Positions 9,580 to 20,290 of a DNA stretch of 64,000 nucleotides are shown one piece after another. Source of the DNA: Bacteroidota bacterium (GTDB lineage Bacteria; Bacteroidota; Ignavibacteria; Tepidaquicellales; Tepidaquicellaceae); NCBI GenBank assembly GCA_018266835.1, contig JAFDZP010000006.1, positions 1-64,000 on the forward strand, written 5' to 3'. The notes under the pieces were generated by a model that was not told where the DNA came from, searched no databases, and saw only the letters and a program-made list of their open reading frames with translations. The stretch's first letter is position 1; each line of letters opens with the position of its first letter. The position numbers were made by a program, and so were the translations under genes.

Positions 9580-9622
9580 TAAAATTAAAAAAATTAATCA
9601 CCCGGAATTTTTCCGAGTGATT
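9580..9622 (-). terminator. Terminator after the recombinase remnant
   Basis: The stem AATCAC.CGGAA / TTCCG.GTGATT (one C-A mismatch, TTT loop) at 9596-9622 is followed on the minus strand by a run of seven T. It overlaps the end of the repaired recombinase frame. Confidence 0.75.
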
Positions 9623-10414
9623 ATTCTTGAATCTTCTTAGGAAGGATTTGTACAGAAGAGTTCTCGATTTCAGCTTGAATACTTACGACCTCAGTTGACG
9701 CATAGTATTTCATAGTGTTGTTAATTTCTTGTGATGAAGCAATTTACTTACGAATTCTATTCTAACTCCAGCGTTTAACATTCTTGTTGCAAGAGTCTTA
9801 CGGAATGTCTTAAGTGTAATTGTATAGTTGTTTGGTATTTCAAATCGCTTCTTCATTCTGCGAAATCTTTGACCAATACTTCCACGTGTAAATCCTTCAA
9901 ATATCTTCTGGTCTTTAGGTAAACTAAGCAGTGGTTTCATCTCTTCTTCTATAAATATTCTCAGTTCTTCATAAAGGGGAAATGTTCTGAATAATTTCGT
10001 TTTTGACACGTTAAGCTTTATATAGTTTTCAGTCATTACAAAATTATCCGGAGTTAAGTTTAATGCATCTATCACTCTCATACCCGTTAATGAAAGGAAC
10101 ACAAACAAAATATAGAGTTTGTAATCCAAATGCTTTGTTTCTTCAAGTATTGTTAAAAGTAAATCATCTGAAAATACAATTATTTCTTTTTCAATTTCTT
10201 TGGGACCCGGCACATTTCTGCAAGGAGATTTATCAATCTGATCTTCTTTCACTAAATAAGTGAAGAACATTTTTATGTATGTATAATATGTTTTTTGAGT
10301 AGCATTGCTAACAGTATCCTTGAGTAATCGAAGATAACCTTTAATATCTGAAGAACGAATTTTATCTATTCTTCTTTCAGGTTCATACTTTATAAAATTA
10401 GTAAATAATCTATT
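9621..10414 (-). pseudogene. Tyrosine recombinase/phage-type integrase, truncated and frameshifted
   Basis: Read on the minus strand, the open frame begins right after a TGA at 10415-10417 with no start codon until an internal ATG at 10270. The region before that ATG still reads as an N-terminal SAM-like core-binding domain ('SNATQKTYYTYIKMFFTYL'). The catalytic domain follows: the first Arg in 'TGMRVIDALNL', the K-x-x-R box in 'LKTFRKTLATRML', and the 'LHH' motif. The frame then hits TGA at 9710. A -1 shift at the ACAACA just before it restores 'TTTMKYYASTEV', including the catalytic Tyr, and runs on to a TAA at 9621. So the gene has lost its 5' end and carries one indel. A programmed shift or an assembly error is possible for the indel, but not for the missing start. 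Confidence 0.82.
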
Positions 10415-10421
10415 TCATTTT

Positions 10422-10703
10422 ATGCCGACATTTATATGTGATGATAGAGGGAAAGAATTGAATAACAGTAAGCCCTATATGACATTTGTTAACATTAATG
10501 GTGAAAGCAATATTGCTGACGATTTCAGAATTAACTTAATGAACCCGCACCTTACTATAGATTACAAAGGGGTACAACTTTCATTGTCCCCTTATATTTT
10601 ATATTCTCGGAATTATGGACTTTTTTTGTATGACGGTCGAAGCAATGATGACAAAAAACTTGTATATAAAAATTACTCTCAAGGTATAAATTTATTTTTG
10701 TAA
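10422..10703 (+). CDS. Hypothetical protein, 93 aa, possibly 5'-truncated
   Basis: Begins MPTFICDDRGKELNNSK and ends YSQGINLFL. I recognise no domain, signal peptide or membrane helix. The reading frame stays open upstream of the ATG into the antisense of the recombinase remnant, so the start may be secondary to a rearrangement near 10415. It stops 4 bases before the next (broken) gene, which suggests one transcript. Base composition is even more AT-rich than the flanking core genes. It may be a remnant rather than a functional gene. Confidence 0.4.
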   Translation: MPTFICDDRGKELNNSKPYMTFVNINGESNIADDFRINLMNPHLTIDYKGVQLSLSPYILYSRNYGLFLYDGRSNDDKKLVYKNYSQGINLFL

Positions 10704-10707
10704 CAAA

Positions 10708-12606
10708 ATGCAACTCACTTTGATATTTATTCTGATAATATACCTCGTAATACAATTTGTGTACTTCGCTATACTTGTAAAACGTGAAAAGCGATTATTG
10801 TTGTTTGCCACTTATTATAGTATTCTGTTTTTTTTTGCCGTTCGTTACCAAAATAACGCCAATCTATTTGGCTTGGTATATTACACCATTATTAATTTTA
10901 CTTTTTAAAAGCAAGCAAATTGCAACTAGGCTATATATTCTAGGCGACTTCCACGGTCCAATACTATTATTACGATTTAAAAGTGTCTATTTAATTTCAT
11001 TTCTCCTTTCTTCTGTTTTGATTCTTGTTTATGCGTTGGTTACTAAGCAATTTTTAACTACCCAATTGTTAGATTTTTTTGTCCGTTTCAATATAGTATT
11101 CAGTATTTTCATTTCGCATGTTTATACATTTTTTTCCTTTTATAGCTCTATATATTTTAGAAACTTGCTAACTACTCATACGAGCAATTCTCTTGGCAGA
11201 TTTAAAAGGTTAACGTATGAACAATTTAAAAAGAAAACCCACTTTGTATTGATTTTAAATGGACCAAATCATACCGGGGATCTATCTGATCTGATAAATT
11301 TAAATGGATTCTTAGGTGACCCAGAGCTTACAAAGGGAATAGAGCTATCAATAATGGTTATGATTTTGGTCAACAAGATATTACACGAAAATATCTTAGG
11401 GGTATAAGTAAATTTGAAATTTTAAAAAACAACAACAAAGTTACCGCATCAATTATTGAAACATATATGAATTCCGGTAAAAAAATAGTGAATAACAAAA
11501 TTTTTTTTCTTGAATTGATAGACTATTTTAACCTCACAAAAGCATATCCTGATAGAAACGTATTAAGAAATATTGCATGTAATATATCTTCACTGTATAT
11601 ATTCCCTGACTTTGATAGGAATGAAGAAAACTTAGACTTATTAAAAGAGTTTTTGGATTACGGGAACTTATCTCACCATAACATAATAAAGTTTACTCCG
11701 GGTAATAAAACAGAATCTTCAACTCCCATTATAGATCCAACGAAAAAACGCAGTAAATTTTCAGGGGAAAAAGAATTGACTGAATTCCATATTGATAAAG
11801 AAGATTTTTTAAATTTTTCATTGTTAGAGAATTTTCTTATATCAACTGAAAATTGGTTATCATACCCTAGGAGACAAAATATTTTAGATTTCAGAATTGC
11901 GTACATGGATAAAAACCACCAGGTTCTTGAGAGCAAATTAATCTCAAATCTCATTCCTCCGCTAAATTTATTTCCCGCAAATATAATTGAGTGCGAATTT
12001 AGTCCAGCAAGACAACTAATTGGGAAGCTCAGTAAAGAAGTAATAACGGCTAATAAAATATATATAATTTTCAATATTTTTGAATTAATTATAAAAACTT
12101 TTCCAGCATAGAAATAATCACCAGTAAAGAAATAATGGAAAACGAATTACTATTTCCAAAAAAGAAAAAAAAGCAATGGTTTATTGGCGATGACATTGGA
12201 AATCTTCTTCAATTTATCAAACACTTTTCTATAAAAGATATAAATTTGGCAAACAATAATTATGCATGCCGGAATGAATTATTTAACCTTCTAACATTCA
12301 ATTTTAATGTTTTTGATATGAACTTCAAAGAAGATTTAAAAGCACTGAACTGGTTCAATCCCGAATTTGATGATCAACCCGAGATTGAAAGGAAATTACC
12401 TGTTTTCCTCTCCTTTATAGTTCTCTTTGGATTTTTTCAAATGTGTAATAAGATAATATTAATTATTTTGGAATTGGTTGGACCTAGTTGAAGATTTTCC
12501 AAATATAATAATATCATTATTTAAAATACTTATACTAATTTATCAAATCTCACTTCCTAATATGCATCTATTAGCATTAATTTCTCCCGCAACCCGCTGG
12601 CATTAA
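10708..12606 (+). pseudogene. Unrecognised membrane protein broken by about four frameshifts
   Basis: Protein-like segments run in one direction but change frame: 10708-10905 (hydrophobic start, MQLTLIFILIIYLVI), 10784-11407 (further membrane helices, then 'LVLILNGPNHTGD'-type soluble sequence), about 11350-12111 ('YDFGQQDITRKYLRGISKF' through MNSGKKIVNN to 'LIIKTFPA'), about 12084-12491 ('IEIITSKEIMENELLF' to 'GFFQMCNKI') and about 12463-12606 ('NWLDLVEDFPNIIISLFKI' to 'ISPATRWH'). Switch points fall at or near homopolymers such as AAAGGG (about 11335) and ATAAAAAC (about 12090). The simplest reading is one ancestral gene of about 630 codons with an N-terminal multi-helix membrane region and a C-terminal soluble domain, now decayed. 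I do not recognise the family. Confidence 0.55.
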
Positions 12607-12785: not shown

Positions 12786-12941
12786 ATGGGTAGTAAAATT
12801 ATAAATAAGGAAAAATTGGTAGCTAATTTGGCAGCTATTTCAGGTATTTATAATTCATCATTTTTTAACTCCAATGTAAATATAGCAATTACACAAGGCG
12901 CGATTGGCGGAACTGGCAGACGCACTAGACTTAGGATCTAG
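12786..12941 (+). CDS. Small ORF running into the tRNA-Leu gene (doubtful)
   Basis: 51 codons starting MGSKIINKEKLVANLAAISG, with a GGGAG five bases before the ATG (12776-12780). The last 14 codons lie inside the tRNA-Leu gene and the stop is the TAG of its anticodon arm. It may be the 5' end of a gene cut off when something integrated at the tRNA, or chance. Low confidence as a functional gene. Confidence 0.2.
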   Translation: MGSKIINKEKLVANLAAISGIYNSSFFNSNVNIAITQGAIGGTGRRTRLRI

Positions 12942-12979
12942 CGGGGTGACCCGTGGGGGTTCGACTCCCTCATCGCGCA
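12898..12979 (+). tRNA. tRNA-Leu (anticodon UAG)
   Basis: Acceptor arms GCGCGAT/ATCGCGC, anticodon stem CTAGA/TCTAG with loop CTTAGGA giving anticodon UAG, a variable arm typical of a class II tRNA, and T-loop GTTCGACTCC. CCA is not encoded (CACAAA follows). It borders the recombinase-bearing patch, so its 3' end is a candidate attachment site, though I found no second copy of that end in the patch. Confidence 0.93.
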
Positions 12980-13033
12980 CAAACCTTGGTTGTAATTATT
13001 AGTTTCATTCAATTACAATTATAAACGATATTA

Positions 13034-18921: not shown

Positions 18922-20235
18922 TTATAACTCTCTCTTTAGAGCTTCTCTTTCAATTTCCAACTGCTTCAGTCTTCTTTCAATCTTATCAAGTTCTTCGGGC
19001 ATTGAGTCAATTTCTATTCTTAACTTCGATGCCGATTCATCAATCAAATCAATTGCCTTATCCGGTAAAAATCTATCGGCAATATATCTATCCGACAACT
19101 GGGCAGCTGCTACAATAGCTCCATCAGTTATTCTTACTCCGTGATGCACTTCATATTTTTCTTTAAGTCCTCTTAAAATTGAAATAGTATCTTCCACATC
19201 AGGCTCTGCAACAAATACAGGCTGAAATCTTCTTTCTAGCGCAGGATCTTTTTCAATATATTTTCTGTATTCATCTAATGTTGTTGCGCCGATTGCTCTC
19301 AGGTCCCCTCTTGCAAGAGCAGGTTTTAGCATATTTGATGCATCCATTGAGCCTTGCGCTGCGCCTGCACCAACCATTGTGTGAAGTTCATCAATGAATA
19401 AAATTATTTTTCCGTTTGATTCAGTTACTTCTTTCAAAACTGATTTCAATCTCTCTTCAAACTGTCCTCTGAACTGCGCCCCAGCAATCAATGCTCCCAA
19501 GTCCAATGCAATAATAAGTTTATCTTTTAAGCCGTCCGGAACATCTCCCTGAATTATTCTATGTGCAAGTCCCTCTGCAATTGCAGTCTTACCAACTCCC
19601 GGCTCACCAATGAGAACGGGATTGTTTTTTGTTCTTCTTGAAAGCACCTGAAGCACTCTTCTGATTTCTTCCTCTCTCCCGATTACAGGGTCAAGTTTTC
19701 CCTTCTGAGCAAGCTCGTTTAAGTTGCGCCCGTATTTTTGTAATGATTGATATGTATCTTCAGGATTTTGTCCCGTAACTCTTTGCGTTCCTCTTATATC
19801 TTTTAACGCTTTCAATATTTCATTTTTTGTTGCTCCGTTAGAGCTAAGTAATGCTGCAACAGGAGATTTTTTATAATCTGCAAGTCCTAATAATAAATGT
19901 TCAGTTGAAACATATTCATCTTTTAAATTCTCAGCTTCCTTTGCTGACATTTCAAGAACCTGAGTTAAGTCGCGTGAGATTCCCTGATTACCAAATCCGC
20001 TGCCTGTAACTTTGGGAAGCTTTTCTAAAAGCTCACCGACTTTTATCTGAATATAATCTTTGTTCATTCCAAGTTTTTGTAAAATGGAAGGAACGATGTT
20101 TTCTGAATTTTGAACAAGAGCAGCAAAAAGATGTTCAGGCTCAATTAACTGATTTGAATAGTTAGAAGCAATTTCAGTTGCTTGCTGAATTGCTTCCTGC
20201 GATTTTGTTGTAAGTTTATTAAAATTAAATGCCAT
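18922..20235 (-). CDS. clpB: ClpB disaggregase, N-terminal half only (truncated)
   Basis: 437 residues from the ATG at 20235, which has AAGGAG eight bases upstream; an earlier ATG at 20268 is rejected. It contains the Clp_N double-repeat domain (about 1-150), the first AAA+ module with Walker A GEPGVGKT (about 204), Walker B 'ILFIDELH' (about 275) and 'ALERRFQPV' (about 329), and the first helix of the middle domain ('[19 protein letters not shown]'), then a TAA. Normal ClpB is about 860 residues; the rest of the coiled-coil and the whole second AAA+ module are missing, and the next gene begins 20 bases on. Either this is a decayed or split gene, or the remaining half lies elsewhere. ClpB works with DnaK to rescue aggregated protein, and one ring alone should not do so. 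Confidence 0.88.
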
Positions 20236-20254
20236 ACGTGTACTCCTTAGTTTA

Positions 20255-20290
20255 TTCCTTAACAACAAAAATGCTTTCGTTGTGAAGGAA
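20255..20290. promoter_or_regulatory. Inverted repeat upstream of clpB
   Basis: TTCCTTAACAAC (20255-20266) and GTTGTGAAGGAA (20279-20290): 12-base arms with one mismatched pair and a 12-base spacer, 20 bases upstream of the clpB start. It does not match the CIRCE (HrcA) element. It may be an operator for heat-shock control or a 5'-UTR hairpin. Confidence 0.5.

Follow-up and report, generated by a model that had tools for sequence, protein, structure and literature searches.

Gene content of the locus

The window (the whole stretch of 64,000 nucleotides that was analysed) contains, between a broken integrase gene and an intact tRNA-Leu gene, a row of open frames on the plus strand that may be read as the pieces of one decayed gene for a membrane protein. 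The features of this locus, in the order of their coordinates, are:

9582-10399, minus strand: tyrosine-recombinase (integrase) pseudogene (PF00589, E 8.6e-16); N-terminal ~107 residues gone, frame lost near 9720
10422-10703, plus strand: what remains of an upstream gene (its last 93 codons with the stop), ending 4 bases ahead of the ATG of piece 1
10708-10905, plus strand: piece 1, ATG start and hydrophobic N-terminus (MQLTLIFILIIYLVIQF...); open frame 10690-10908, hydropathy
10907-11343, plus strand: piece 2, again with hydrophobic stretches, after which the soluble part begins; open frame 10781-11407
11341-12090, plus strand: piece 3, the middle of the product, charged and soluble-looking (NNGYDFGQQDITRKYLRGISKF...); open frame 11320-12111, positive codon score
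12087-12470, plus strand: piece 4, in which the soluble part ends and a hydrophobic part follows; open frame 12084-12491 (135-codon run), positive codon score
12466-12606, plus strand: piece 5, hydrophobic C-terminus and final stop; open frame 12463-12606, hydropathy only, the weakest piece
12898-12980, plus strand: intact tRNA-Leu (ARAGORN and Rfam), right-hand limit of a lineage-specific island

The first-pass annotation had delimited the gene as 10708-12606; coding signal is present in this span, but a sixth coding remnant directly upstream (10422-10703) had been missed. The coding score of this remnant is +9.0 (the other frames scored -38 and -87), and it starts near ~10399, where the similarity of the minus-strand integrase to its intact copy ends. 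No relative of the remnant was found (the profile databases yielded nothing but noise at E > 0.05); a Pfam match to RE_AlwI (E 0.065) was below the cut-off and is most likely due to chance. A short open frame at 12786-12941 on the plus strand (MGSKIINKEKLVANLAAISGIYN...), which runs into the tRNA-Leu and has no Pfam match, is either a chance frame or the truncated start of another gene.

Reading frames and coding signal

The plus strand can be crossed without a stop from 10708 to 12603 with only 4 switches of frame; the opposite strand needs 23, and the minimum among 2000 simulated sequences (first-order Markov, dinucleotide make-up kept equal) was 20. The longest stop-free run comprises 263 codons (piece 3) and that of piece 2 comprises 208, compared to a simulated maximum of 125. 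With a frameshift-tolerant codon model trained on 33 intact genes within the window, the plus strand scored 21 (simulated maximum 4) and the minus strand 0. Positive codon scores were obtained in pieces 3 and 4, for the frames 11320-12108 and 12109-12429. Pieces 1, 2 and 5, which are hydrophobic, did not score positively under this model from neighbouring genes and are supported by their freedom from stops and by hydropathy; synonymous codon choice looked host-like in none of the pieces. The five protein-like segments of the same direction that had been noticed in the first-pass annotation are thus borne out as five plus-strand open frames that overlap end to end, far beyond chance. The coding signal at 10708-12606 is broken by frameshifts or stops, as in bacterial pseudogenes; an intact homologue against which the disruptions can be aligned was found for the neighbouring integrase and for no part of the membrane protein.

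Neighbouring open frames overlap at all four joints, and the frame changes there by +1, -1, -1 and +1, i.e., in both signs. The earlier statement that the segments join at homopolymers applies to joint 1, the overlap of which includes a long run (T9 at 10828), but is weak in general, because at joints 2-4 the runs within the overlap are all short (about 3-5 identical bases), which is unremarkable at 29% G+C.

We consider it plausible, though unproven, that the pieces belonged to a single gene, and favour this reading over several genes because the frame of piece 3 scores positively before its ATG and each joint is spanned by an overlap of neighbouring frames. A series of small genes, some of them possibly still intact, would be a rather unlikely arrangement: the first would encode a membrane protein and be broken (10708-11407), the second a soluble protein of 214 aa (ATG 11467) and the third a protein of 118 aa (ATG about 12135). 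The in-frame ATGs at these two positions agree with such an arrangement, as do the short distances (about 60 and 25 bases, respectively) that separate them from the stop of the frame before; however, the frame of piece 3 has a small positive score over the 42 codons upstream of ATG 11467, where both of the other frames contain stops and have negative scores, the overlap of frames recurs at four of four joints, and a relative was found for none of the single pieces. The claimed single product of ~630 residues agrees with the joined length of 634 aa, but the internal ATGs would allow separate genes.

In the joined product, hydropathy indicates a hydrophobic N-terminus, a charged middle and again a hydrophobic C-terminus (hydrophobic stretches at residues ~6-24, 93-111, 120-138 and 570-627). 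This agrees with the membrane N-terminus proposed earlier; the C-terminus, which had been described as soluble, is not simply so, because hydrophobic stretches recur at ~570-627. The live product was probably an accessory protein anchored in the membrane, with a predicted soluble part of some 400 residues. AlphaFold models built from single sequences, for piece 2 (pLDDT 48, mostly helical at low confidence) and for piece 3 (pLDDT 40), were too poor for a fold search.

Search for relatives

Neither the individual frames nor the joined protein gave anything but noise (E > 0.05) in Pfam, PHROGs, NCBIfam, PADLOC and PDB. No relative of the membrane protein was found in phage and plasmid records (tblastn), in peptide-pattern scans of IMG/VR and of 84,980 species, or in four overlapping sets of genomes (148 from relatives, 395 from the phylum, 391 from the class and 98 from a second class). 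The pattern scans detect close relatives only and the genome searches were made within one phylum, so a distant family may exist elsewhere. A weak genome match to a secreted-protein frame (L009) was rejected as chance on inspection. Further weak matches lay in a glycosyltransferase (L079) and in frames, non-coding or antisense, at a PAS kinase (L007), a pair of shikimate genes (L008) and a TonB receptor (L004), and were likewise attributed to chance. A paralogue in the same genome was also rejected, the membrane gene being present in single copy.

Every collection searched was thus either empty or gave chance matches, and the gene is an ORFan in the sense of having no detectable homologue. The first-pass annotation had likewise been able to match it to no family; its further suggestion of a class not yet named gained no positive evidence. 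Of the two outcomes on which that annotation had made its reading depend, an intact homologue and a coding signal across the segments, only the second was found.

The broken integrase and the limits of the island

An intact copy of the integrase (360 aa) is located on another contig of the same genome (G000:C7 6139-6962; 89% DNA identity to the pseudogene). This copy aligns over 9582-10399 only, and the integrase in the window therefore lacks about 107 N-terminal residues. Its frame is lost ahead of MKYYA, a motif that we take, going by where it lies in the intact copy, to hold the catalytic tyrosine, and the integrase in the window does not have the complete frame with an in-frame catalytic tyrosine that characterizes a functional tyrosine recombinase. 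The comparison with the intact copy, by showing both truncation and frameshift, supports the reading that the membrane gene decayed next to a broken recombinase. The intact copy is preceded by a 103-aa HTH_17 protein, and the two form an integrase and HTH_17 (excisionase-like) pair (L029; G000:C7 6181-7577, minus strand) with no clear cargo beside it.

In the sister species, the other one of the genus, the tRNA-Leu, clpX and the genes that follow match the window from base 12895 onwards; the comparison with the sister species gave no match between 9300 and 12895. Conservation of gene order between the two reaches no further left than the tRNA-Leu, and the left side is therefore a lineage-specific island. 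The G+C content of the region is 0.28-0.30, compared to 0.348 for the window. Integration into the tRNA-Leu was rejected: ordinary integration of this kind is unsupported because the island lies 5' of the tRNA, the wrong side for insertion into a tRNA 3' end, and because this 3' end occurs in the window only in the tRNA itself, with no second copy as a direct repeat. Flanking repeats of an insertion were limited to short, chance-like ones. That the membrane gene was cargo of the adjoining decaying element, as had been supposed, is plausible but unproven: adjacency to the dead integrase argues for it, but the DNA around the intact copy contains no cargo resembling the membrane gene, the tRNA-Leu is on the wrong side and the repeat is missing.

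A split ClpB in the same window

A half-length ClpB is encoded at 18922-20268 (minus strand); it is the N-terminal half, with Clp_N, the first AAA domain and the start of the middle domain. A second ClpB locus lies at G000:C2:82004-83305. By count of the matches listed, the ClpB halves are separate ORFs at separate loci in 17 of the family's 29 genomes (positions 1-~428 of TIGR03346 for the N-terminal half and ~425-849 for the C-terminal half with the second AAA domain), and in none of the 29 did a ClpB exceed the TIGR03346 cut-off; frames of 840-860 aa in the same list were matched in two pieces with lower scores and are probably ClpC. The N-terminal half of the sister species ends at the identical place, and the frame of an SMR-type transporter comes next. 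Judged from these sequences, the half-length ClpB is a natural split and not an error, because separate halves are carried by those 17 genomes. Our literature search found no report of a natural ClpB split. Since NBD1-M and NBD2 of Thermus ClpB, when engineered, can be expressed as separate proteins (PMC4239642), a two-part disaggregase acting in trans is conceivable.

Proposed origin and decay of the membrane gene

Taken as a whole, the locus is probably a pseudogene in decayed DNA of a mobile type: an AT-rich ORFan, the second of two genes, that encoded a membrane protein of about 630 aa and decayed beside an integrase. The AT-rich, lineage-specific gene would be of foreign origin, and its upstream partner would have been reduced to its last 93 codons. 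The membrane gene would have come to adjoin the integrase, perhaps arriving with it; at least four small indels of both signs (+1, -1, -1, +1) would then have destroyed its frame, and the integrase lost its own frame and its N-terminus. The best explanation of the sequence is that the full protein is no longer made from this locus. Its function is unreadable because no intact relative was found in any collection searched.

There is an outside chance that the two genes represent an undescribed module on mobile DNA (the lost partner and the ~630-aa membrane protein, e.g., a membrane-anchored defence or transfer protein), no intact member of which has been sampled yet. It is very improbable that the gene is intact and broken in the assembly only, by sequencing errors: the T9 run inside the overlap of joint 1 agrees with this reading, and a metagenome-type or long-read assembly could contain indels where the DNA is AT-rich, but every error would have to fall inside the island, the remaining long genes of the window have open frames, and the large truncation of the integrase is beyond what base-calling errors can make. 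Clustered sequencing error is also unlikely because the flanking genes are intact (clpX and its neighbours are in frame with the sister species). A living gene with programmed frameshifting, to which the overlapping frames might be attributed, can practically be dismissed in view of four shifts of mixed sign within one gene, no common slippery motif in the overlaps (by eye), a decayed neighbour and no conserved relative.

An ordinary decayed orphan gene such as this has little significance alone, dead orphan genes being common in bacterial islands; it would matter only if an intact relative revealed a new family of membrane proteins on mobile DNA. Compared to the integrase and HTH_17 pair on the other contig, the integrase remnant in the window is similar in its DNA (89% identity) but differs in its truncated N-terminus, its frameshift and the missing HTH partner, and the pair itself has no similar cargo. 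In E. coli and Shigella, the A+T content of ORFans is higher than that of the remaining acquired genes, nearly half of the inactivated acquired genes occur in a single genome, and truncation is the predominant break among ORFans (PMC2275313). The membrane gene resembles these ORFan pseudogenes in being homologue-free, A+T-rich, inactivated and confined to one genome, but its host belongs to another phylum and it was broken by several frameshifts rather than by truncation.
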